Under the pieces are notes generated by a model. That model ran no database searches, had not been told where the DNA came from, and was given only the letters and a program-made list of their open reading frames with translations. 64,000 nucleotides of DNA from Myxococcota bacterium (GTDB lineage: Bacteria > Myxococcota > B64-G9): the NCBI GenBank assembly GCA_022710975.1, contig JAKLGA010000015.1, forward strand, positions 62,001 through 126,000. Direction: 5' to 3'. Position numbers and translations under genes: made by a program. Positions within the stretch are counted from its first letter, which is position 1; every line of letters begins with the position of its first letter. This document shows, piece after piece, positions 10,730-25,403 of the stretch.

Positions 10730-11572
10730 GTGGGCGAGCTGGACGAGGCGCTGGGCGCCGCCTGGGAGGCCGGGGCGCGAGCCTGGCCCGGGGTGGACCT
10801 CCCGCGCGAGGCGTTCGCGGCCTGGCTGGCCGCGCGGCTGCCCCCGGGCGGTCAGGGGCTGGCCGCGCTGGCGGCCCTGCGCGCGCCCGATCTCTACCTG
10901 GCCTGCGCCGCGGCGCGGGGCGACCCGGCGGCCCAGCGCGCGCTCGGCGGGCTGTGCGCCGAGCTGCTGCGGCTCGAGCTCCCGCGCCTGGGGCTGCAGG
11001 CGGTCGAGCTCGACGATTTGCTCCAGCGGGTGCTCGACAAGCTGCTGGTGGCCGCGCCCGGGCGCGCCGCGCGCCTCGAGCAGTACGCCGGCCAGGGCGC
11101 GCTCAGGAGCTGGCTGCGGGTGGTGGCCCGGCGCGAGGCGCTCGATCGCAAGGCCCTCGTCGTGCGCGAGGTGCCCTGGCAGGAGGAGAGCCTGGAGGAC
11201 GTGCTGGGGGCGCTGTCCGCCGCGGACCCGGAGCTCGAGCAGTTGAAGGGCCAGTACCGGCAGGAGTTCAAGGCGGCCTTCGGCGAGGCCTTCGGCGCGC
11301 TCGATGCGCGCGAGCGCAACCTGCTGCGGCACCTGGTGTTCGATCGCCTGTCCATGGAGCAGATCGGCGCCCTGTACCACGTGCACCAGTCCACGGTCTC
11401 GCGCTGGCTGGCCAAGGTGCACGCGCGCCTGCTGTCCGGCACCCTGCGGGCCCTGGGGGGGCGGCTGCGGGTCGGACGCCGGGAGGCGGACAGCATCCTG
11501 CGCCTCATCCAGAGCCGGCTCGAGGTGAGCATGCGCCGGCTGCTGGGCGACGGGCCGACCGAGCCCGACTGA
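10730..11572 (+). CDS. Sigma-70 family (ECF-like) RNA polymerase sigma factor
   Basis: A 280-residue regulator beginning at GTG 10730. The central part resembles sigma region 2 (LDDLLQRVLDKLLV, GALRSWLRVVARREALD), and ~200-245 resembles region 4 with a helix-turn-helix (SMEQIGALYHVHQSTVSRW). It is longer than minimal ECF factors, with N- and C-terminal extensions rich in Leu and Arg. The gene is nearly fused to the upstream kinase gene, so phosphorylation-linked control is a reasonable inference. No anti-sigma factor is adjacent, although the kinase carries an N-terminal zinc finger of the anti-sigma type. Confidence 0.8.
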   Translation: MGELDEALGAAWEAGARAWPGVDLPREAFAAWLAARLPPGGQGLAALAALRAPDLYLACAAARGDPAAQRALGGLCAELLRLELPRLGLQAVELDDLLQRVLDKLLVAAPGRAARLEQYAGQGALRSWLRVVARREALDRKALVVREVPWQEESLEDVLGALSAADPELEQLKGQYRQEFKAAFGEAFGALDARERNLLRHLVFDRLSMEQIGALYHVHQSTVSRWLAKVHARLLSGTLRALGGRLRVGRREADSILRLIQSRLEVSMRRLLGDGPTEPD

Positions 11573-11655
11573 AGAAAGCCCGCATGGATTCCGCCCGGGG
11601 GCCGTCTTCCCCCCCAGGAGGGCCCCTCGGGAGGCCCGCCCAGGGAGCGGAAGCC

Positions 11656-14600
11656 ATGAAGAACGCCTTGTCTTGCGGCATGTTGGCGGCGCTGTGGATC
11701 CTCGGGGGGGCTCCGGCTGGCCAGGCCGCCCCGCCCTCCATGACCCGCGCCCAGGTGCTCGACCTCGGCCGGACGGGCGAGGGCTACTCCTACTGGTGGG
11801 GGCACGCCCGCTGGCGCTGGGACGGCGCCGAGCACGGGGCCTGCAGCGGCGCGGGCTGCCCGGACAGCTGCACCCACTCGGGCAGCTACGGGGCGGACTG
11901 CTCGGGCTTCGTGGGCAAGGCCTGGCAGGTGCCCGACCCGAGCGATCTGACCCACGACTGGCACCCCTACTCGACCTGGCACTTCGTCAACCAGAGCGAC
12001 CACTGGAGCACGCTCGACCGCGCCGCCTGCGGCCCGGCCGACGCGCTGGTTTACAACGAGAGCGGCGCGGGCCACATCGTGCTGGTCGAGGGCGGCGACC
12101 CGTGGGGGCAGACCACGGTGTACGAGGCCAAGGGCTGCGCCTACGGCGTGGTGCACAACACCCGCGCCTTCGCCTCCAAGTACGGCTGCATCCGCCGGGA
12201 CAACCTGAACGAGGGCTGCAGCCCGCACTGCGAGGGCAACCTGATCATCGGCGCCGACTGCGGCCAGGGCGACTGCGGGGCCTACGGGGCCTACTGCCAC
12301 CAGGACGCCGGGGCCGATCCGCGCTGCGTCTTCTTCCTGTGCGAGCCCTGGGGCGAGCAACACGGCTGCCTGGACGAGCGGACCAAGGCCGACTGCCTGG
12401 ACGGCGTGGTTTCCTTCGGCGACTGCAGCGCCTACGGCGCCTACTGCCACCAGGATCCGGGCGAGCAGGCCCGCTGCGTGCTCGGGCTGTGCCAGCCGCA
12501 CGGCGAGAACCACGCCTGCCTGGACGCGCGCACCATCGTGGACTGCCGCGAGGGCGACTTCACCCTGGGCGACTGCGGGGCCTACGCCGCCTTCTGCCAC
12601 CAGAGCCCGGGCGAGCAGGCCCGCTGCGTGTCGGGCTTCTGCATCCCGGACGCCGCGAGCGAACCCTGGGAGCACACCATTTGCCTGCTCGACGGGCAGC
12701 TCGGGCGTTGCACGGCCGACGGCGGCCTGGAGGCCAGCCCCTGCCCGGCGGGCAGCCACTGCGCCGAGGGCGCCTGCGCGCCGGACGCGTGCGAGCCCGC
12801 CTGCGCGGGCCGGGTCTGTGGTCCGGATCCGGTCTGCGGCGCCCCGTGCGGGGAGTGCCCGGCGGGCAGCCACTGCGTCGAGGGCGCCTGCGCGCCGGAC
12901 GCGTGCGAGCCCGACTGCGCGGGCCGGGCCTGCGGCCCGGATCCGCGCTGCGGGCTGCCGTGCGGCGCCTGCCCGGCCGGCCTGGAGTGCGACCCGGCCG
13001 GGGCCTGCCGGCCCCCGGCCTGCGAGCCGCAGTGCGGCGCCCGGGTGTGCGGGCCGGATTCGGCCTGCGGCGCGAGCTGCGGTGCGTGCGCGGACGGCCA
13101 GGTCTGCCAGCCGGACGGGCGCTGCCAGACCCTGCCGGCCGAGCAGGGCGTGCTGTCCGGCGTGGTGACCGGCGCGGGCGAGGACGGCAGCCAGCCCGTG
13201 GCCGGGGCCGCGGTCTGGACCGAGGGCGGCGACGAGATCCAGGCGGACGCGCGGGGCGCCTGGCAGCTGGTGCTGCCCGCCGGCGAGCAGCGCCTGCACG
13301 CCCGGGCCGAGGGTTACCTCGAGGCGAGCGCGGACTGCACGGTGATCGCCGCCCAGGCGATCGAGTGCCCGCTCCGGCTGGAGCCGCTCGAGACCGAGGA
13401 GCCCGAGGAGGTCGTCGTGGAGGGCGGCTGCGCCAGCGCGGGCGGCGGGGCGGGCCCGGGCGCCGGCGGGCTGCTGCTGCTCTGCGCCCTGCTGACGCTC
13501 CGCGCGCGGCGGAGCCGGCTGGGCGCTGCGCTGGCCGGCCTGGCGGTTGCCTGGGTCGCGGGCGCTGGGCTGACGGGCTGCGGGCTGGATGAAGACGGGC
13601 TCCTGGACCGCTCGGAGCTGGCCCGGGTGGTGGCGGAGCACGAGGGCGCCCTGGAGGCCTGCGGCGACGGGCCCGTGGTCATGGGCATCGACGTGTCCAA
13701 GTGGCAGGGCGACATCGACTGGCACGCGGTGCGCGCGGCCGGCTTCGAGTACGCGCAGATCCGCCTGGCCTACGGCGTGTACACCTTCGACGAGTACTTC
13801 GAGCGGAACTGGGCCGGCGCCAGGGCGGCCGGCGTGCGCCGCGGCGCCTACCAGTGGTTCAAGCCCGACCAGGATCCCCTGGCCCAGGCCGAGGTGCTGC
13901 TGGCCCACCTGACCCTCGAGCCCGGCGATCTGCCGCCCATGGTGGACGTGGAGGACACCGGCGGGCAGCCGCCCCAGGTGGTGGCCGAGCGCCTCGGCCA
14001 GTACCTGGCCCACGTGGAGGCGGCCACCGGCACCACGCCGCTGCTCTACACCGGCTACTACTTCTGGCGCGATCAGGTGGGCGGGGCGACCCAGTTCGTC
14101 GATCACCCGCTGTGGATCGCCCAGTACAACGACCACGCCTGTCCTGACATCCCGGCACCCTGGACCCGCTGGGCCTTCTGGCAGTTCACCAGCCAGGGCT
14201 CGGTCCCGGGCATCTACGGCGACGTCGATCTCGACCGCTTCAACGGCGACGCCGCCGCCCTGGCCGCCCTGGCCGTGGGCGGCGATCCGCGCTGCCTGGA
14301 GAACCCGGACTTCGGCGGCTGCGACGGCTCGGTCATCACCCACTGCGACGAGAACGACCAGGTGTCCAGCGGCGACTGCGGCTACTACGGCGCCACCTGC
14401 TCCACCCTGGGCGGGCACCCCCACTGCGTGCACTTCAATTGCTGGACCAACCTGGAGGGCGGTGAGGACGGCAGCTTCTGCGTGGAGGGCAGCGACCGGC
14501 TGGCCACCTGCAGCCTGGGGGTGTACTCGGAGGGCGACTGCGGCGCCTACGGGGCCCGGTGCAGCGAGGAGGGCGGGACGGCGCACTGCGTGCACTACCT

Positions 14601-15273
14601 GTGCTGGAGTAACCTGGAGGGCGGCGAGGACGGCAGCTTCTGCGTGGAGGGCAGCGACCGGCTGGCCACCTGCAGCCTGGGGGCGTACTCGGAGGGCGAC
14701 TGCGGCGCCTTCGGGGCCCGATGCAGCCAGGCGGGCGGGGCGGCGCACTGCGTGCACTACCTGTGCTGGACCAACCTGGAGGGCGGCGAGGACGGCAGCT
14801 TCTGCCAGGCGGACGGCAGCCTGGGGGTGTGCCGGCTGGGCCAGTACGAGTCGCGCGCCTGCGCCGCCGGGGAGAGCTGCCAGGCCGGGGCGTGCGTGCC
14901 CCAGGGCTGTACCCCCGCGTGTGGCCAGCGCGCGTGCGGGCCGGATCCCGCCTGCGGGCAGAGCTGCGGGGAGTGCCCACAGGGGCAGGCGTGCGGCGCG
15001 GATGGCCAGTGCGCCGAGGTCGCCTGCGAGCCCGACTGCGCGGGCCGGGCCTGCGGCCCGGATCCGGTCTGCGGGGAGCTGTGCGGGGCGTGCGGGTCGG
15101 GGGAGTACTGCGACCTGGACGGCGCCTGCCTGCCGGACGGCTCCGAGGAGGTCGAGGAGCAGGAGCCCGAGGGCGGCTGCGCGAGCGCGGGTGGGGCCGG
15201 CGGCGGCGCCTGGCTGCTCCTGCTCGCCTGGCTGAGCGCGCGCTCGAGGGTGCTCAGTCGAGCCAGGCGGTGA
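11656..15273 (+). CDS. Two-part secreted cell-wall hydrolase: NlpC/P60 half fused to GH25 lysozyme half
   Basis: A single open frame of 1205 residues from ATG 11656. Part one: signal peptide; NlpC/P60-like peptidase (ADCSGF with Cys82, AGHIVLVEGG with His140); Cys-rich repeats; a carboxypeptidase-regulatory-like beta domain at ~495-580; then GGCASAG (Cys592), a hydrophobic stretch and LRARRSR. Part two follows with no stop and no ATG/GTG/TTG start: a lipoprotein-signal-like segment ending GLTGC (Cys642); a GH25 muramidase (GIDVSKWQGDIDW with Asp679, PPMVDVED); three 54-residue Cys-rich repeats; CxPxCxGRxCGPDPxCG repeats; and a second GGCASAG anchor (Cys1175). Each half looks like a complete exported protein. 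It could be one true fusion processed at the internal signals, or two genes joined by a sequence error. Confidence 0.85.
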   Translation: MKNALSCGMLAALWILGGAPAGQAAPPSMTRAQVLDLGRTGEGYSYWWGHARWRWDGAEHGACSGAGCPDSCTHSGSYGADCSGFVGKAWQVPDPSDLTHDWHPYSTWHFVNQSDHWSTLDRAACGPADALVYNESGAGHIVLVEGGDPWGQTTVYEAKGCAYGVVHNTRAFASKYGCIRRDNLNEGCSPHCEGNLIIGADCGQGDCGAYGAYCHQDAGADPRCVFFLCEPWGEQHGCLDERTKADCLDGVVSFGDCSAYGAYCHQDPGEQARCVLGLCQPHGENHACLDARTIVDCREGDFTLGDCGAYAAFCHQSPGEQARCVSGFCIPDAASEPWEHTICLLDGQLGRCTADGGLEASPCPAGSHCAEGACAPDACEPACAGRVCGPDPVCGAPCGECPAGSHCVEGACAPDACEPDCAGRACGPDPRCGLPCGACPAGLECDPAGACRPPACEPQCGARVCGPDSACGASCGACADGQVCQPDGRCQTLPAEQGVLSGVVTGAGEDGSQPVAGAAVWTEGGDEIQADARGAWQLVLPAGEQRLHARAEGYLEASADCTVIAAQAIECPLRLEPLETEEPEEVVVEGGCASAGGGAGPGAGGLLLLCALLTLRARRSRLGAALAGLAVAWVAGAGLTGCGLDEDGLLDRSELARVVAEHEGALEACGDGPVVMGIDVSKWQGDIDWHAVRAAGFEYAQIRLAYGVYTFDEYFERNWAGARAAGVRRGAYQWFKPDQDPLAQAEVLLAHLTLEPGDLPPMVDVEDTGGQPPQVVAERLGQYLAHVEAATGTTPLLYTGYYFWRDQVGGATQFVDHPLWIAQYNDHACPDIPAPWTRWAFWQFTSQGSVPGIYGDVDLDRFNGDAAALAALAVGGDPRCLENPDFGGCDGSVITHCDENDQVSSGDCGYYGATCSTLGGHPHCVHFNCWTNLEGGEDGSFCVEGSDRLATCSLGVYSEGDCGAYGARCSEEGGTAHCVHYLCWSNLEGGEDGSFCVEGSDRLATCSLGAYSEGDCGAFGARCSQAGGAAHCVHYLCWTNLEGGEDGSFCQADGSLGVCRLGQYESRACAAGESCQAGACVPQGCTPACGQRACGPDPACGQSCGECPQGQACGADGQCAEVACEPDCAGRACGPDPVCGELCGACGSGEYCDLDGACLPDGSEEVEEQEPEGGCASAGGAGGGAWLLLLAWLSARSRVLSRARR
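14422..14810 (+). repeat. 162-bp tandem repeat (54-residue Cys-rich module)
   Basis: The string CACTGCGTGCAC recurs at 14422, 14584 and 14746, exactly 162 bp apart, and the DNA between copies is nearly identical. The unit encodes a six-cysteine module containing NLEGGEDGSFC and GDCGAYGARC. The third copy diverges after GGEDGSFC. Confidence 0.85.
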
Positions 15274-16077: not shown

Positions 16078-17718
16078 GTGCAACCCGAGATGCAGCCCGA
16101 AGAGCTGGAGATGATCCTGTCCACGGTCGGGCGCTTCGCCGAGCGCCGGCTGGGCGAAGCGGCCCTCAAGGCCCTGGACCACGAGGAGCGCTGCCCGCTC
16201 GAGCTGCTGCGCGAGCTGCTCGGCCCGGAGATCGGGCTGCACCTGGCGTTCGTGCCGGTGGCCTACGGCGGCCTGGGCGGGGGCGCGCGGGCGGTCTTCC
16301 GCATCTGCGAGGCGGTCGGGCGAGTGGACCTGGGCATCGCCACCTCCCTGCTCGGGGTGGCCCTGGGCAGCGACCCCATCCTGGTGGGCGGGACGGAGGA
16401 GCAGCGCGTCCGCTGGATGGGCCGGGTGGCCAGCGAGGGCATGCTGGTGGCCTACGCGGTCACCGAGCCGGGCGCCGGCTCGGACCTCGGCGCCATCCGC
16501 ACCCGGGCCGAGCCGGTGCGCGAGGGCGAGCGGGTGGTGGCCTACCGCCTGTCGGGCTCCAAGCAGTTCATCACCAACGGGGCCATCGCCGATCTGTACA
16601 CCGTGCTGGCCGTGGCGCCGGGCGGCCCGTCCTTCTTCGTGCTCGAGCGCGGCGCCCCGGGCCTCGTGGCCGGTCCGGCCGAGGTCAAGCACGGCATCCG
16701 CGCCTCGAACACCACCAGCCTGACCCTGGACGACGTGCGCGTGCCCGCCGAGCAGCTCCTGGGCGGGGTGGAGGGCCAGGGCCTGGCCCAGGCCCAGGCG
16801 GTGTTCGGCTACACGCGCGTCATGGTGGCCGCCTTCGGCCTGGCCGGCGGCTCCGCGGCGCTCGAGCGGGCCGTGGCCTACGGCCGCGACCGCGTCGCGG
16901 ACGGCTCGGCGCTCATCGCCAAGCAGGCCTGGACCCACAAGCTGATCGTGCCCCACGCGGTGGCCCTCGAGGCCGCGCGCGCCCACATCGAGGCGCTGTG
17001 CGACCGGCTCGACGCCGGTGAGCAGGAGCTGCAGGTGGACGGGGCGGTCGCCAAGCTGATGGCCACCGAGGCGGGCAACGCCGCGGCCGAAGCAGCCATC
17101 CAAGCCCACGGCGGCTACGGCTACCTCAGGGACTACATGGTCGAGAAGCTCAAGCGCGACGTGCGCATCACCTGCATCTACGAGGGCACCTCCGAGATCC
17201 TGCAGCGCACCGTCGCCCGGGACCGCTGGCGGCTGCACCTGATGTCCGCCGGGCGCCACCACGCCAGGCTGGCCGAGGAGCTCTCCGCCCTCGAGCGGGC
17301 CCAGCCCGGCTGTGGCGCGGCCCAGGCGGCGGACGCCTGCCGGATCGTGGGCGAGACGCTGGAGATCTGCCGCCAGGCGCGCCTCACCCGCCACCAGCAC
17401 GTGCTGTTCGCGCTCGGGCTGACGCTCGCGCGGGTCGAGGTGGCGGCCGCCTTCGCCCGCAAGGCCGCCCGCGGCCTGCCGGACACCTCGCGCCTGGACG
17501 CCGGGTGCCTGCAGGCCATGAGCAGGCTGTGGGCCCGCCGGGTGGCGCAGCAGACCGCCGACGATGCCCTGGAGATCGTGTTCGGCGCGGACGCCCTGCA
17601 GGCCAGCGCGCTCCAGGAGTTCGAGGGCCGGCTCCAGCTCCCGCACGTCCACGCCGGCCTCGGCGGCCAGCTCCAGGATCTGGATCGGGTCGCCCGCACC
17701 CTGGCCGAGCGCGCCTAG
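16078..17718 (+). CDS. Acyl-CoA dehydrogenase with C-terminal extension
   Basis: GTG 16078 is preferred because GGAGG lies 5 nt upstream; ATG 16051 in the same frame has no such site. The product is 546 residues. The core is a standard acyl-CoA dehydrogenase: YAVTEPGAGSDL (flavin/substrate loop), GSKQFITNGA, HGIRASNTTSLTLDDVRVP, and IQAHGGYGYLRDY. CIYEGTSEILQ contains the family Glu/Gly site. About 150 extra residues follow the core, helical and Ala-rich, as in the larger members of the family. The gene ends 35 nt before the lipid synthase, so it may supply or modify acyl chains for it; that link is positional only. Confidence 0.9.
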   Translation: MQPEMQPEELEMILSTVGRFAERRLGEAALKALDHEERCPLELLRELLGPEIGLHLAFVPVAYGGLGGGARAVFRICEAVGRVDLGIATSLLGVALGSDPILVGGTEEQRVRWMGRVASEGMLVAYAVTEPGAGSDLGAIRTRAEPVREGERVVAYRLSGSKQFITNGAIADLYTVLAVAPGGPSFFVLERGAPGLVAGPAEVKHGIRASNTTSLTLDDVRVPAEQLLGGVEGQGLAQAQAVFGYTRVMVAAFGLAGGSAALERAVAYGRDRVADGSALIAKQAWTHKLIVPHAVALEAARAHIEALCDRLDAGEQELQVDGAVAKLMATEAGNAAAEAAIQAHGGYGYLRDYMVEKLKRDVRITCIYEGTSEILQRTVARDRWRLHLMSAGRHHARLAEELSALERAQPGCGAAQAADACRIVGETLEICRQARLTRHQHVLFALGLTLARVEVAAAFARKAARGLPDTSRLDAGCLQAMSRLWARRVAQQTADDALEIVFGADALQASALQEFEGRLQLPHVHAGLGGQLQDLDRVARTLAERA

Positions 17719-17753
17719 GCGCCCGGCCCCCGAGACAACGAGGAGAACGAGCC

Positions 17754-20700
17754 ATGCCCGCGCACGCCACCCCGTTCGAACCCCTGGCGGTGATCGGCCT
17801 GGGGGCCATCCTGCCCGACGCCCCGGACGTGCCCAGCTTCTGGCGAAACGTGCTGGAGGGCAGGGACTCCGTCGGCGAGGTGCCGCCCGAGCGCTGGCGG
17901 ACCGAGGACCACTACGACCCGGACCGCGGCGCGCCCGACCGCAGCTACACCAAGATCGGCGCCTTCGTGCGCGGCTTCCGCTTCGACCCGCTGGCCTACC
18001 GCATCCCGCCCCGGGTGGCCGAGGTCATGGACGCGGTGCAAAAGTGGGCCGTGGAGGCCTCGCGCCAGGCGCTGGCGGACGCCGGCCTCGACCGGCGAGA
18101 GTTCGACCGGGAGCGCTGCGCGGTCATCCTGGGCAACGCCCTGGCCGGGGACCAGCACTACCTGACGGCCTTGCGCTGTCACCTGCCGCGCCTCGAGCGC
18201 ATGCTGCGCGAGGCGCCGGCCATGGCCGCGCTCCCGCCCGAGACCCGCGCGGTGCTGCAGGCCGAGTTCCACGAGCGGGCCCAGCGGGGGCTGCCGCCCA
18301 TCACCGAGGACAGCATGCCGGGCGAGCTGTCCAACGTGATCGCCGGCCGGGTGGCCCAGCTCTTCGGCCTGCGCGGCCCCAACTTCACCACCGACGCGGC
18401 CTGCGCCTCCTCGCTGGCGGCCCTGCAGGCCGCCGCGGCCGGGCTGGCCGAGAGGCGCTACGACCTGGTGCTGACCGGCGGGGTGGACTCCTCGATGGGG
18501 CCCGAGTCCTTCGTCAAGTTCAGCAAGGTCGGGGCGCTGTCCCCCGACGGCAGCCGGCCGTTCGACGCCCGGGCGAACGGGTTCGTGATGGGCGAGGGCT
18601 GCGGGGTGCTCCTGCTGAAGCGCCTGGCGGACGCCCGGCGCGACGGGGATCGGGTGTACGCCGCCATCCTGGGGCTGGGCTCCTCCTCCGACGGCCGGGG
18701 CAAGGGCATCACCGCGCCCAACCCCGAGGGCCAGCGCCTGGCGCTCCAGCGCGCCTACGCCTCGGCCGGGCTCAGCCCGATCGAGGTCGGGCTGGTCGAG
18801 GCCCACGGCACCTCCACGGCCGTGGGCGACGTGGTCGAGGCCCAGGCGCTGGCCGCGCTGTTCCAGGCCGCCGGGGCCCGCCCGCGCCAGGTGCCGCTGG
18901 GCTCGATCAAGTCCCAGATCGGCCACCTCAAGAGCGCGGCCGGGGCCGCGGCGCTGCTGAAGGCGGTGCTCAGCGTGCACCACGGGCGCATCCCGCCCTC
19001 GATCCACTTCGAGACCCCGAACCCGCAGATCGACTTCGAGCAGGGGCCGTTCTACGTGCCCCGCGCGGCCGAGCCGTGGCGCACGGCGCCGGGCCGGCGG
19101 CGGGTGGCGGCGGTGTCCTCCTTCGGCTTCGGCGGCTCGAACTTCCACGTGCTGGTGGGCGAGCCGGGCCCGGAGGCGGCCGGCGGCGGCGGGGACGGCG
19201 GGGGCCAGGAGCGCACGACGGAGGTGCAGGTCATGGCGGCGGGCACGCTCGAGCTGGGGACGCAGGCGCAGGCGACGAGCGCGGGCGCGGAGCTCCGCTT
19301 CCTGGCCGTGGGCGCCGGGGATCGGGCCGGGCTCGGCGCCGGCCTGCAGGCGGCGCTGGCGCGTCCGCAGGACGACGCCACCCGTGTGCCGGACGCGGTG
19401 CGGCGGGCCCCGCAGCGGCTGGTGATCCCCTGGGGCGCGCCCGAGGAGCGCGCCCGCAAGGCCGCGCTGGCGTCCCGGGCGCTCGCCCAGGACGAGCCCG
19501 CCGCCTGGCGGGCGCTGGCGGCCCAGGGCGTGTTCCGCGGTCAGGGCGAGCCGGGCAAGCTCGCCTTCGTGTTCCCCGGCCAGGGCTCGCAGTACGTGGG
19601 CATGCTGGCCGGGCTGCGCGTGCTCGAGCCCGTGGTGGCCGAGACCTTCGCCGAGGCCGACCGCGTCATGACCCCCATCCTGGGCCGCCCGCTCAGCGAC
19701 TACGTGTTCGCCCCCGACTCGCCCGAGACCCGCGCGGCGCTGCAGGACACGACCGTGTGCCAGCCGGCCATGCTGGCGGCCGACATCGCGCTGCACCGCC
19801 TGCTCGCGCGGCGCGGCTTCCAGCCCGACCTGGTCGCCGGCCACAGCCTGGGCGAGTACGCCGCCCTGGTGGCCGCGGGCGCGCTGGAGCTCGGGGACGC
19901 GCTCGTCGCGGTCAGCGCCCGGGCCAAGGAGATGGCCGGGGTGCAGGTGCCCGATCCGGGCCGCATGGCGGCCGTGTTCGCCTCGCCCGAGCGGGTGCAG
20001 GCGCTGCTCGCGGACCTGCCCGCGGTCGTGCCGGCCAACTACAACTCGCGCTCGCAGACGGTGATCGCCGGGACCAGCGCGGCCATGGCGGCGGCGCTGC
20101 TCCGGCTGGAGGCGGCCGAGGTGAAGGCGGTGCCGCTGGCCGTCTCGCACGCCTTCCACTCCTACATCGTGGCCCCGGCGGCCGAGCCGCTGCTCGCGGT
20201 GCTCTCGCGGCTGCCCTTCCGGGCGCCGCGCATCCCGGTGCTCGCCAACCTGGACGCCGAGCCCTACGGCCAGCGGCCCGAGGACCTGGGGGACAACCTG
20301 CGTCGGCTGGCCCGCCAGGTGGCCTCCCCGGTGCGCTGGTCCCAGTCGCTCGAGCGCATGCACGCGCTGGGCGCCCGGGTGTTCGTCGAGGTGGGCCCCA
20401 AGAAGGTGCTGGCCTCCTTCGTCAGCGACGTGCTGGGCGAGGCCGGCGTGCTGGCGGTGGCCACTAACCAGCCCAAGCTGGGGGAGCTGCCCTCCCTCGC
20501 CCTGGCGCTGGGCGCGCTGGGCGCGGCGGGCCTGCCGCGGGAGTCCGAGCGGCCCGAGGTCGCCGAGATCGCCGGGGTGGCCGAGGCCACCGAGGTCGCC
20601 GGGGCGCCCGAGGTGGTGGTGAGCGGGGTGAGCCTCGGCCTGCCCGGGCTCGGACGCGAGGTGTTCGCCGAGGACAACACCGAGGCGCTGCTGGCCGGCT

Positions 20701-23700
20701 ACCCCGGCATCGACAGCCTGCCCGAGGCGGGCCGCCAGGCGCTGGCCGGCCAGCGCATCGTGCGGCTGCTCAAGGACGCCCCTGGCGGGCCGGCCTTCGA
20801 GGTGATCGACGCGCCCGAGCGGGTGGCCCAGCTCACCGGCCAGCGCGGGCGGCTGGACCTCGCGGCCGAGTTCGGTTTGCAGCCCGAGCTGATCGAGTCG
20901 CTGGACATCACCACCCAGCTCGCCGTGGGGGCGGGGCTGCTGGCGCTGCGCGACGCGGCCATCCCGCTCGTGCCGCACCACCGCACCGCGCGCAACGGCG
21001 CCCGCCTGCCCCTCGGCCACAGGCTGCCCGAGGGCCTGGCGGACGAGACCGGGGTGATCTTCGCCTCGGCCTTCCCGGGTTACGACCGGTTGATCGGCGA
21101 GCTCGAGGCGCGCGGCCGGGCCGAGCAGCTCGCGGCCCGCATCGCGGAGCTGCGCGCGCTGGCCGACGAGCTGGGGCCGCTGCACGCCGTGAGCCGCAGG
21201 CTCCAGGCGCTCGAGGCCGAGCTGGGCGAGGGCTACCACCTCGACCGGCGTTTCATCTTCCGCGCGCTGTCCATGGGCCACGCCCAGCTGGCCGAGCTCA
21301 TCGGCGCGCGCGGCCCGAACATGCAGCTCAACGCCGCCTGCGCCTCGACCACCCTGGGCGTCGCCATCGCCGAGGACTGGATCAGCCGCGGGCGCTGCCG
21401 GCGGGTGCTGCTGGTGGCGGCCGACGACATCACCAACCCGCGCCTGAGCCCCTGGCTGGTGGGCGGGCTGCTGGCCACCGGCGCGGTGACCACCGAGGCC
21501 GAGCTCGAGCGGGCGGCCCTGCCCTTCGACCGGCGCCGGAACGGGATGATCCCCGGCATGGGCGCGGCTGGCCTGGTGATCGAGGCGGCCGCGGCCGCGG
21601 CCGAGCGCGGGGCGCGGGGCGTGGTGCGGCTGCTGGGGACGGTGGCCGGCAACAGCGCCTTCCACGGCTCCCGCCTGAACCCCGAGCACATCTCCGGGCT
21701 GATGGCGCGGCTGGTCGGCCAGGCCGAGCGCCGGCATGGGCTCTCGCGCGCCGCGCTGGCCCGGGAGCTGGTGTTCGTGTCCCACGAGACCTACACCCCG
21801 GCCCGCGGCGGCAGCGCCGGCGCCGAGGTGCGCGCGTTGCGCGACACCTTCGGCCCGGCCGCGGCCGACATCCTGGTGGCCAACACCAAGGGCTTCACCG
21901 GCCACCCCATGGCCGTGGGGCTGGAGGACGCGGCCGCGGTGCGTATGCTCGAGCGCCAGGTGGTGCCGCCGGTGGCCAACCACCGCGAGCCCGACCCCGA
22001 GCTGGGGGTGCTGAACCTCTCGCGCGGCGGCCCGGCCCCGGTGCGCTACGCCCTCCGGCTGGCGGCCGGCTTCGGCTCCCAGGTGGCCATGACGCTCACC
22101 CAGCGGCTCGAGCCCGCGCCTGGGCGCATCGCCGACCCGGCCCGGCACCAGGCCTGGCTGGCCGAGGTGACTGGCGCCCCGGACGCCCGGCTCGTCGTGC
22201 AGAACAAGACGCTCCTGGCCCTGCCACCCGAGGCGGCGCAGGCGGAGGCGGCCGTGGCGCCGCCGGTCGCGCCGCCGACCGATCGGACGGATCCGACCGA
22301 TCGGTCCGATGAGGTCCGCGCCAAGATCCTCGAGATCGCCGCGAAGAAGACGGGCTACCCGGTGGACATGCTGGATCCGGCGCTCGACCTGGAGGCGGAC
22401 CTCGGCATCGACACGGTCAAGCAGGCGGAGATGTTCTCGGAGATCCGGGTGGCCTTCGGCATCCCCAAGCTGGAGGGCATGAAGCTGGCGGACTACCCCA
22501 CCCTGGGGCACATCGTGCAGTTCGCGCTGCAGCGGCTGCCAGGCGGGGGCCAGGAAGAGTATCCGACCGATCCGACCGATCGGTCGGATCCGACCGATCG
22601 GTCCGATCGGTCCGATGAGGTCCGACAGAAGATCCTCGAGATCGCCGCGAAGAAGACGGGCTACCCGGTGGACATGCTGGATCCGGCGCTCGACCTGGAG
22701 GCGGACCTCGGCATCGACACGGTCAAGCAGGCGGAGATGTTCTCGGAGATCCGGGCGGCCTTCGGCATCCCCAAGCTGGAGGGTATGAAGCTGGCGGACT
22801 ACCCCACCCTGGGGCACATCGTGCGGTTCGCGCTGCAGCGGCTGCCTGGCGGGGCCGAGGAAGAGAAACAGACCGATCCGACCGATCGGTCGGATCCGAC
22901 CGATCAGTCCGATCGGTCCGATCGGTCCGAGCGGCCGGCCGAGTCCCTGCCGCCCTTCTTCACCCCCGAGCTGGTCGGGTTGCCGGCCCTCGCGGATTGC
23001 CTGCCCACCGGCGTGCGGCTGCAGGGCGCGCGGGTGCTGCTCGCGGGCGGGGAGGAGCGCCTGGCCGCGGCGCTGGCCTCGGCCCTGCGGGAGCGCGGCG
23101 CCGAGCCGGTGCGCCTGCGGGCCCAGACGCCCGAGGAGGCGGCAGGCGAGGCCGCGGCGGCCGGGCCGCTCGCCGGCGCGCTGGTGTTGCCGCCCGCGGG
23201 CGCGGTGGTGCCGCTGGACGAGCCGGACGACGCGCGCTTCCGCGAGGCGCTGGACGCCCGCGTGCGCCTGCCGTTCCGGGTGGCCCAGGCGCTGTCCGCC
23301 GGGCTCCGCGATCGGGCCGGGGCCTTCTTCCTGGTGCTCACCCGCCTGGGCGGCCTGCACGGCTTCGGCCCCGAGGGCCCGGCCGATCCCCTGGCCGGGG
23401 CCAGCACGGGCTTCGCCAAGGCGCTGGCGCGCGAGTGGGGCCGCTGCCTGGTCAAGGCGCTGGACCTGCCCGCGGAGCTCGAGGCGGACGAGGTCGCCCG
23501 GGCGGCGCTGGGCGAGGTGGAGCGCGGGCCGGGCGCGGTGGAGATCGGCGTCGGTCCGGCCGGCCGCTTCGGGGTGTGCTGCCGGGAGCTCCCGCCCGGC
23601 CAGGCCGGGCCGGGCTTCGCGCTCGGGGCCGGCCAGGTGGCGCTCGTGCTGGGCGGGACCGGGGGCATCGCCCCCTGGCTGGCCGCGGAGCTCCGCCCCC

Positions 23701-25403
23701 AGGGTGGAGCCACCTTCTGGCTGGCGGGCCGCGGGCCGCTGCCGGCCGCGGACGACCCGGACGTGGCGATGCTCGAGCGCGAGCGCGAGCGGTTGAAGGC
23801 CGTGCTGGCCGAGCGGCTGCGCGCCCAGGGCGCGCGCCTAACCCCGGCCGCGGTTGAGGCCGAGCTGCAGCGCCTGGAGCGGGCCCGGGCGGCGCGCGAG
23901 GCCGTGGCGCGGGTCGCGGCCCGGGGACATCGGGTGCAGCACGCCCGGGTGGACGTGACCGACGCCGACGCCCTCGGGGAGCTGGTGCAGGAGCTGCTGC
24001 GGCGGGAGGGCCGGCTCGACCTGGTGGTGCTGGCCTCCGGCCTGGACCAGAGCCAGGCGCTCGAGCGCAAGACGCCCGAGGGCTTCGAGCGCATCCTGGG
24101 GGTCAAGGTGCAGGGGCTGCGCACCCTGCTGCGCGCGCTGCACGGGCGGGCCACGCCGAGGCTCGCGCTGCTCGGCTCGATCGCCGGCCGCTTCGGCAAC
24201 CTGGGCCAGGTGGACTACGCCGCCGCCAACGACGTGCTGGCCAAGGCCGCCCGTGGCCTGGGGGCCGTGACCCTGGCCTACGGGCCGTGGGCCGAGGTGG
24301 GCATGGCCAGCCGCGGCTCGGTGCCACAGGCCATGGCGCAGGCGGGGCTCCCCTGCCTGCGCCCGGCCGAGGGCCAGGCCAGCCTGCGGGCCGCGCTGGC
24401 GGCCGGGCTGGTCGGCGAGGTGGTGGTGGCCGCCGGGCTGGGCGGGCTGAGCGCGGCCGACGGGCTGCAGTGCGTCGAGCTCGACAGCCTGCGCCGGCGG
24501 CGGGTCGCGAACCCGCGCGGCTTCCCCCTGCTGGGGGAGGCGCTCGGCTGGACGCCGGCCGAGGGCCTGGAGCTGGAGGTGGTCTTCGACGCCCGGCGCG
24601 ATCCCTACCTGTCCGATCACCGCATCGAGGGGGTGCCGGTGGTGCCAGGGGTGATGGCGGTGGAGTGCTTCGCCGAGGCGGTGCGGCTGGTCGAGCCGGG
24701 CCAGGGCGCGCTCAGCGTGGAGGAGCTGGTCTTCGAGGCGCCGCTCAAGCTCTACCGCGACGAACCGCGGCGGGCGCGACTGGTCGCGCGACCGGTCTGG
24801 GAACGCGGGCGGGCTTACCGGGTCAGCCTGGAGACCACCCGCGCCCTGGCCGGCGGCCGCACCCAGCGCGTGATCCACCACCGGGCCCTGGTGCGCCTCG
24901 AGCCCGGGGCGGCCGCGGCGCGCTGCGTGCTCCCGGCGGCCGACGGGCGGGCGGCGCTGGCCAGCGCCGCCATCTACCGGGTGTTCTTCCACGGCCCGTC
25001 GTTCCAGGTGCTCGAGCGCGCCGCCCCGGCCGACGGCGGCGGGGTGGTCGGGGAGCTGGCGCCGGCGCGCGCGCTGCCCCGCCTGGGCAGCCCGGGCGAG
25101 CTGGTCACCCAGCCGATGCTGGCCGAGCTGGCCTTCCAGACCGCGGGCCTGCTGCAGGCCCGCCGCAGCGAGCGGCTGGCGCTGCCCGCCGGGGCGACCC
25201 GGTTGGCCTTCCCCCGGCCCGGCTCGGCCCCGCAGGGGCAGGTGTCGGCCTGGGTGGAGGAGGGCGGCGCGGGCTTCCGCGCCCGGGTGGTGGACGAGGC
25301 CGGGCAGGTGCTGGTGGAGCTGGACGGCTACCGCACCTCGGAGCGGCCGGAGCCGCTGTCCGAGGCGGCCCGCGGGGCGCTGCGCTCCGGGGAGCCCGCG
25401 TGA
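17754..25403 (+). CDS. PUFA-type iterative polyketide / secondary-lipid synthase (KS-AT-KS-ACP-ACP-KR-DH)
   Basis: A 2549-residue megasynthase; ATG 17754 has an AGGAGAA site. Domains in order: KS1 ~8-470 (Cys217 in DAACASS, His351 in HGTST, His391 in GHLKS); AT ~600-900 (FVFPGQGSQ, GHSLGEY with Ser698); KS2 ~1060-1450 (Cys1196 in AACASTT, His1344 in SHETYTPA, His1384 in GFTGH); two ACPs (~1520-1590, ~1622-1692); KR ~1740-2240 (LVLGGTGGIA, GSIAGRFGNLGQVDYAAAND); DH hot-dog domains ~2270-2530 (LSDHRIEGVPVVPGV, His2289). There is no thioesterase. The order resembles PfaA-type PUFA and secondary-lipid synthases with a second ketosynthase. Both ACPs read GIDTVK, with Thr where PfaA carriers have Ser (Thr1554, Thr1656). 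The product is unknown. The next gene encodes a phosphopantetheinyl transferase. Confidence 0.9.
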   Translation: MPAHATPFEPLAVIGLGAILPDAPDVPSFWRNVLEGRDSVGEVPPERWRTEDHYDPDRGAPDRSYTKIGAFVRGFRFDPLAYRIPPRVAEVMDAVQKWAVEASRQALADAGLDRREFDRERCAVILGNALAGDQHYLTALRCHLPRLERMLREAPAMAALPPETRAVLQAEFHERAQRGLPPITEDSMPGELSNVIAGRVAQLFGLRGPNFTTDAACASSLAALQAAAAGLAERRYDLVLTGGVDSSMGPESFVKFSKVGALSPDGSRPFDARANGFVMGEGCGVLLLKRLADARRDGDRVYAAILGLGSSSDGRGKGITAPNPEGQRLALQRAYASAGLSPIEVGLVEAHGTSTAVGDVVEAQALAALFQAAGARPRQVPLGSIKSQIGHLKSAAGAAALLKAVLSVHHGRIPPSIHFETPNPQIDFEQGPFYVPRAAEPWRTAPGRRRVAAVSSFGFGGSNFHVLVGEPGPEAAGGGGDGGGQERTTEVQVMAAGTLELGTQAQATSAGAELRFLAVGAGDRAGLGAGLQAALARPQDDATRVPDAVRRAPQRLVIPWGAPEERARKAALASRALAQDEPAAWRALAAQGVFRGQGEPGKLAFVFPGQGSQYVGMLAGLRVLEPVVAETFAEADRVMTPILGRPLSDYVFAPDSPETRAALQDTTVCQPAMLAADIALHRLLARRGFQPDLVAGHSLGEYAALVAAGALELGDALVAVSARAKEMAGVQVPDPGRMAAVFASPERVQALLADLPAVVPANYNSRSQTVIAGTSAAMAAALLRLEAAEVKAVPLAVSHAFHSYIVAPAAEPLLAVLSRLPFRAPRIPVLANLDAEPYGQRPEDLGDNLRRLARQVASPVRWSQSLERMHALGARVFVEVGPKKVLASFVSDVLGEAGVLAVATNQPKLGELPSLALALGALGAAGLPRESERPEVAEIAGVAEATEVAGAPEVVVSGVSLGLPGLGREVFAEDNTEALLAGYPGIDSLPEAGRQALAGQRIVRLLKDAPGGPAFEVIDAPERVAQLTGQRGRLDLAAEFGLQPELIESLDITTQLAVGAGLLALRDAAIPLVPHHRTARNGARLPLGHRLPEGLADETGVIFASAFPGYDRLIGELEARGRAEQLAARIAELRALADELGPLHAVSRRLQALEAELGEGYHLDRRFIFRALSMGHAQLAELIGARGPNMQLNAACASTTLGVAIAEDWISRGRCRRVLLVAADDITNPRLSPWLVGGLLATGAVTTEAELERAALPFDRRRNGMIPGMGAAGLVIEAAAAAAERGARGVVRLLGTVAGNSAFHGSRLNPEHISGLMARLVGQAERRHGLSRAALARELVFVSHETYTPARGGSAGAEVRALRDTFGPAAADILVANTKGFTGHPMAVGLEDAAAVRMLERQVVPPVANHREPDPELGVLNLSRGGPAPVRYALRLAAGFGSQVAMTLTQRLEPAPGRIADPARHQAWLAEVTGAPDARLVVQNKTLLALPPEAAQAEAAVAPPVAPPTDRTDPTDRSDEVRAKILEIAAKKTGYPVDMLDPALDLEADLGIDTVKQAEMFSEIRVAFGIPKLEGMKLADYPTLGHIVQFALQRLPGGGQEEYPTDPTDRSDPTDRSDRSDEVRQKILEIAAKKTGYPVDMLDPALDLEADLGIDTVKQAEMFSEIRAAFGIPKLEGMKLADYPTLGHIVRFALQRLPGGAEEEKQTDPTDRSDPTDQSDRSDRSERPAESLPPFFTPELVGLPALADCLPTGVRLQGARVLLAGGEERLAAALASALRERGAEPVRLRAQTPEEAAGEAAAAGPLAGALVLPPAGAVVPLDEPDDARFREALDARVRLPFRVAQALSAGLRDRAGAFFLVLTRLGGLHGFGPEGPADPLAGASTGFAKALAREWGRCLVKALDLPAELEADEVARAALGEVERGPGAVEIGVGPAGRFGVCCRELPPGQAGPGFALGAGQVALVLGGTGGIAPWLAAELRPQGGATFWLAGRGPLPAADDPDVAMLERERERLKAVLAERLRAQGARLTPAAVEAELQRLERARAAREAVARVAARGHRVQHARVDVTDADALGELVQELLRREGRLDLVVLASGLDQSQALERKTPEGFERILGVKVQGLRTLLRALHGRATPRLALLGSIAGRFGNLGQVDYAAANDVLAKAARGLGAVTLAYGPWAEVGMASRGSVPQAMAQAGLPCLRPAEGQASLRAALAAGLVGEVVVAAGLGGLSAADGLQCVELDSLRRRRVANPRGFPLLGEALGWTPAEGLELEVVFDARRDPYLSDHRIEGVPVVPGVMAVECFAEAVRLVEPGQGALSVEELVFEAPLKLYRDEPRRARLVARPVWERGRAYRVSLETTRALAGGRTQRVIHHRALVRLEPGAAAARCVLPAADGRAALASAAIYRVFFHGPSFQVLERAAPADGGGVVGELAPARALPRLGSPGELVTQPMLAELAFQTAGLLQARRSERLALPAGATRLAFPRPGSAPQGQVSAWVEEGGAGFRARVVDEAGQVLVELDGYRTSERPEPLSEAARGALRSGEPA
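22276..22932 (+). repeat. Duplicated ACP unit with GATCGG-rich linkers
   Basis: Two near-identical ACP coding blocks lie 306 bp apart. They are flanked by three linkers (22276-22311, 22561-22617, 22870-22932) built from GACCGATCGGTCGGATCC-like strings. The linkers encode Thr/Ser-Asp-Arg/Pro runs such as TDPTDRSDPTDRSD. The palindromic GATCGGTC core recurs many times, and the pattern looks like local expansion plus gene conversion. Confidence 0.85.

Follow-up and report, generated by a model that had tools for sequence, protein, structure and literature searches.

Gene fusions that leave a protein-sorting signal in the middle of a polypeptide have been described in an archaeon and proposed in a member of the Myxococcota. 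In Haloferax volcanii, two once-independent genes have fused, in a strain-specific manner, to give HVO_0405, in which the tripartite sorting signal is central, and the protein is cleaved at this central signal in a manner dependent on the ArtA pathway (PMC7157517). MXAN_5598 of Myxococcus xanthus contains an internal MYXO-CTERM; its authors propose a fusion of two genes with processing of the N-terminal part, consider that sorting tags function in mid-protein, and describe internal MYXO-CTERM cases as rare (PMC11980579).

The locus described here lies in a Myxococcota genome of 7.13 Mb in 29 contigs, with a G+C content of about 73% (measured on the parts read). The window, i.e., the whole stretch of 64,000 nucleotides that was analysed, corresponds to positions 62001-126000 of contig C7. 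It contains an open reading frame in which an NlpC/P60-like half and a GH25 lysozyme half follow each other, each ending in a MYXO-CTERM tag. We regard it, with a probability of roughly 0.6, as a genuine, lineage-specific fusion of two surface peptidoglycan-hydrolase genes, encoding a hairpin precursor that would be cut by a myxosortase-family protease and by LspA. The features, in window coordinates, are as follows.

11642-11647, forward strand: Shine-Dalgarno-like AGGGAG, read in the sequence, 8 nt 5' of the ATG
11656-15273, forward strand: fused NlpC/P60-like and GH25 precursor ORF, 1205 aa (translation and codon parse)
11656-11730, forward strand: N-terminal signal peptide MKNALSCGMLAALWILGGAPAGQAA without a lipobox, hydrophobic peak at residues 4-20, signal-peptidase I type by inspection
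11734-12225, forward strand: NlpC/P60-like (papain-like) domain with DCSG (Cys82) and GH (His140) motifs
12214-13125, forward strand: Cys-rich linker of GDCGAYGAYCHQD repeats, then EPDCAGRACGPDP repeats (translation)
13153-13359, forward strand: carboxypeptidase-regulatory-like domain, residues 500-568 (PF13620, E 6e-06, under the Pfam gathering score)
13423-13518, forward strand: internal MYXO-CTERM with GGCASAG, TM segment (599-615) and RARRSR (616-621) (TIGR03901, 13.9 bits, E 0.8)
13507-13581, forward strand: internal lipoprotein signal peptide RRSRLGAALAGLAVAWVAGAGLTGC with lipobox Cys642, hydrophobic peak at residues 622-638
13687-14214, forward strand: GH25 lysozyme domain (PF01183, 141 bits, E 6.1e-41, over the cut-off)
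14287-15150, forward strand: Cys-rich repeats of the GH25 half (GDCGAYGARC..., CGPDPxCG) (translation)
15172-15270, forward strand: terminal MYXO-CTERM with GGCASAG, hydrophobic segment and Arg-rich tail, followed by the stop (home-made HMM, 26-29 bits)

Translation of 11656-15273 gives 1205 residues with the sole stop at the end, which agrees with the coordinates and frame of an earlier sequence-only reading of this DNA. Its statement that no stop and no ATG, GTG or TTG separates the halves also holds: the junction has no in-frame stop, and the three start codons are absent from 13418 to 13546 in all forward frames. In the frame of the ORF the last GTG lies at 13417 and the next at 13627. Third-position GC keeps its phase over the junction (0.87-1.00), and a codon-usage Viterbi parse returned one continuous coding segment, contig C7 73719-77237 (window 11719-15237). 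Elsewhere in the genome, at G000:C23:146219 (reverse strand) and C29:43152 (forward strand), the coding signal is interrupted for about 50 nt and resumes in the same frame with no stop.

The N-terminal half was assigned as NlpC/P60-like on weak evidence. DCSG (Cys82) and GH (His140) are invariant in an alignment of 12 relatives; the family identity given by the sequence-only reading is less firm. PF00877 matched four of the 12 relatives (best E 0.0011), and a Pfam search with the gene's own peptidase domain alone gave zero matches. The predicted structure of the domain, of low confidence (pLDDT 53), gave weak CHAP/PlyPy fold matches (E 0.1-0.2). The GH25 domain matches muramidase 1jfx (E 2e-29) and retains the conserved GIDVSKW, DVED and GDVDLDRF motifs. 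Active-site motifs are conserved in both halves, and decay is absent. Linker modules of the GDCGAYGAYCHQD and EPDCAGRACGPDP types recur in many proteins of the same genome. These Cys-rich repeats are also found, together with a tail of MYXO-CTERM type, in a VanY-like peptidase (L017, G041:C245). The Cys-rich and MYXO-CTERM modules seem, from these sequences, to be swapped between different wall hydrolases.

GGCASAG occurs twice in the ORF, at residues 590-596 (13423) and 1173-1179 (15172). The internal tag has all three parts of a MYXO-CTERM, namely the invariant Cys motif, a TM helix and an Arg-rich cluster. It misses the curated TIGR03901 cut-off (13.9 vs 20 bits), which counts against the fusion reading; the terminal tag of a paralogue (L003, C23:422521) is likewise under this cut-off, with 18.4 bits, and a home-made HMM gave 23-26 bits on the internal tag. 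The terminal tag of the fused gene is absent from the TIGR03901 match list; its home-made HMM match finishes 6 residues short of the stop. The internal lipoprotein signal has an n-region (RRSR), an h-region (LGAALAGLAVAWVAGAG) and the lipobox LTGC at residues 639-642 (13570-13581), fits the pattern [LVI][ASTG][GA]C, and has no start codon of its own. It resembles the signal peptide of a separate paralogue (L004), MKRSNSILANLAAVAVVASLAGC. Judged by its sequence, RRSRLGAALAGLAVAWVAGAGLTGC is an entire putative lipoprotein signal peptide minus its Met.

RARRSR is common to the MYXO-CTERM tail and the n-region of the lipoprotein signal. Both elements obey the same charge rule, with Arg inside the cell, so one shared cluster could serve both and a helix hairpin with both halves outside would be possible. 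The inter-helix loop of this hairpin would be only 6 residues long, which is very short and counts against the fusion reading.

As a control for internal tags, TIGR03901 matches were collected in 2.39 Mb (about one third) of the same genome. The tag lay 0-29 residues from the stop in 27 of the 28 matches; the sole internal one is that of the fused gene, with 586 residues after the tag. With the home-made MYXO-CTERM profile 19 of 20 tags were terminal. The internal placement in the fused gene is not chance. The whole genome has about 50 MYXO-CTERM matches over the cut-off, which indicates that the sorting system is heavily used.

Both halves have separate counterparts in the same genome. L002 and L003 are NlpC-type proteins in which the MYXO-CTERM is followed by a stop. 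Like the fused gene they have a signal peptide, a peptidase domain (54-59% identical), a regulatory-like domain and a MYXO-CTERM; unlike it, they have a stop codon immediately behind the Arg-rich tail. L004 corresponds to the second half, with a lipobox signal peptide, a GH25 domain 48% identical (residues 620-877) and a C-terminal MYXO-CTERM, but has a start codon of its own. No NlpC-type match was found adjoining L004. Many separate GH25 relatives (L004, L016, L021, L023, L027, L029) have a lipobox at the N-terminus together with a MYXO-CTERM-like tag at the C-terminus, and from their sequences two lipid anchors per protein are possible.

A search for the same fusion in related genomes, proposed with the sequence-only reading, found none. 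No other neighbouring NlpC-type and GH25 genes were found in 58 relatives and 195 phylum genomes, where pairs were judged by eye from match tables and many of the 195 assemblies are fragmented; in the closest other pair the two are separated by about 49 kb. When GTDB contigs were scanned for the fusion, every relative found was unfused and at most 55% identical. Among the 58 relatives, the 195 phylum genomes and the GTDB contigs the fusion is unique, being present in one genome only. Separate genes in relatives, which the sequence-only reading had set against a fusion, do exist, but since paralogues and relatives carry separate genes the fusion is derived rather than absent.

In the family relatives examined, neither the upstream sigma factor nor the downstream acyl-CoA dehydrogenase has an NlpC or GH25 neighbour; gene order therefore gives no date for the fusion and does not speak against a chimeric join. 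The fused gene is preceded by a Myxococcales-type sigma factor (Sig-70_gmx1, window 10730-11572), with a serine/threonine kinase upstream. In L309 and L311, two family relatives, the gene after this sigma factor is a different one, encoding a predicted surface lipoprotein that contains Cys. Downstream of the acyl-CoA dehydrogenase lies a large polyketide/fatty-acid-synthase-like ORF (window 17505-25403) with ketosynthase, acyltransferase and tandem acyl carrier repeats; the same order is found in L315. A search with a defence-system library gave no match.

The occurrence of separate genes in paralogues and relatives would also be expected if two adjacent genes had been joined by an assembly or sequencing artefact, with a few bases containing the stop and the start missing from a GC-rich CGG-repeat stretch. 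The junction has a high GC content and folds strongly, and multi-base insertions could bring back a stop and a start. To examine smaller errors, all single-base changes in 13418-13578 were made in silico, the goal being that the first gene should stop beyond the Arg cluster and the second should start 15-45 codons ahead of the lipobox Cys642. No single substitution or insertion in this range restored both. Two single-base deletions formally passed, yet gave signal peptides without K/R and added a 17-residue extra tail to the first gene. At most five frameshift-like or missing-stop junctions were found among 517 close tandem gene neighbours (2.0 Mb of the assembly), and no further internal MYXO-CTERM was present among the 28 matches of the control. 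On balance, it is unlikely that the assembly has lost several bases here. A single-base error as the cause was rejected, every edit in 13418-13578 having failed to give a convincing two-gene outcome; it is unlikely because two normal genes do not result from any one edit and because few junctions in this assembly look like frameshifts. Of the proposal in the sequence-only reading that two genes were merged by one indel, the merger stands, as the genes are separate elsewhere, and the single-base error does not.

Under the reading as a genuine fusion, a short stretch with the stop of the first gene and the start of the second would most likely have been lost, at the arginine codons that end the MYXO-CTERM tag and open the lipoprotein signal peptide. 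The signal peptide at the N-terminus would direct export of the 1205-residue precursor. The MYXO-CTERM helix would halt with its arginines on the cytoplasmic side, inside the cell, and the second helix would return outward to form a hairpin, so that the GH25 half would be exported too. The myxosortase-family protease encoded on contig C9 would cleave at Cys592, and Lgt and LspA would act on the lipobox, releasing a GH25 half that is lipidated at Cys642. The terminal MYXO-CTERM of the GH25 half would be processed like the internal tag. Only a 49-residue hairpin would be discarded, and the products would be the same two anchored hydrolases as those of separate genes. We infer translation, topology, both cleavages, lipidation and the substrate (own or prey cell wall) of the fused protein from its sequence. 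As the joint runs through two tags that are normally removed, the fused protein is probably still splittable into the original enzymes.

Genes of the two cutting-enzyme families are present in the genome. A myxosortase-family CPBP protease at C9:91721-92032 scored 127.7 bits against the Mrt_core cut-off of 100. This enzyme (L125, G000:C9:91676-92041) is the genome's only myxosortase-family enzyme and is nearest to MrtP and MrtC; it lies under every subtype cut-off (MrtP 200/250, MrtC 167/195, MrtX 135/180), which counts against the fusion reading. No separate MrtX was found in the genome. To our knowledge, MrtX has been reported from all known Myxococcota genera. Two lspA genes are present, both over the cut-off.

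The GH25 half might additionally be made by internal initiation, besides the read-through protein, at CTG codons in 13489-13519 or at GTG 13627. The CTG codons stand at the expected position of a lipoprotein start, and GGAG is found 9 nt upstream of GTG 13627. Few parts of the ORF have RNA as structured as that at 13480-13530 (minimum -34 kcal/mol), whereas the true start is open, the 50-nt window from ATG 11656 folding weakly (-8.1 kcal/mol vs an ORF mean of -20.0). No Shine-Dalgarno-like site precedes the CTG codons, and a start at 13627 falls behind the lipobox and would give an enzyme without an export signal. With the junction RNA structured, the real start open and a ribosome-binding-like site missing before the CTGs, we consider internal initiation very improbable.

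A real fusion could also stay unsplit, as a bifunctional, doubly membrane-threaded enzyme that is kept in the inner membrane or degraded. The case for splitting is drawn from the sequence itself, and the unprocessed form of HVO_0405 did not accumulate in ArtA-pathway mutants, which the authors ascribe to instability (PMC7157517). Both cutting signals of the fused gene look intact, matching enzyme families are encoded, and neither half shows decay; an unsplit product is accordingly judged improbable, more so than an artefact. The splittable polyprotein, the first option of the sequence-only reading, is the best-supported reading of the sequence by analogy with existing precedents. The chances are about even for its full form, in which a MYXO-CTERM and a lipobox placed head to tail around a shared arginine cluster would allow two intramembrane proteases, of the myxosortase family and LspA, to excise the hairpin and release two separately lipid-anchored hydrolases in a fixed 1:1 ratio.

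If so, the gene shows how fusions can survive where nothing but elements destined for removal makes up the joint. It would serve as a natural two-product reporter of myxosortase and LspA processing in Myxococcota, comparable to HVO_0405 for archaeosortase, with cut and uncut forms expected about 60 kDa apart. It would also test whether MYXO-CTERM needs a C-terminal position and whether a lipobox functions away from the N-terminus.

In the literature, which was covered incompletely, a sorting tag joined directly to an internal lipobox, with two different intramembrane proteases cutting, was not found described. The fused gene shares with HVO_0405 the fusion of two genes around a C-terminal sorting signal that has come to lie centrally. 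HVO_0405 differs in being archaeal and in depending on ArtA rather than a myxosortase; its cleavage is experimental, whereas that of the fused gene is predicted only. A second internal lipoprotein signal and a second terminal sorting tag are not mentioned for it (PMC7157517). MXAN_5598 is from the same phylum and has the same MYXO-CTERM tag inside the protein; its C-terminal half is an outer-membrane beta-barrel/OmpA part, whereas that of the fused gene is a GH25 lysozyme that is preceded by a lipobox and carries a MYXO-CTERM of its own. Related sorting-tag fusions are already known, and the double-tag joint of MYXO-CTERM and lipobox appears to be new.
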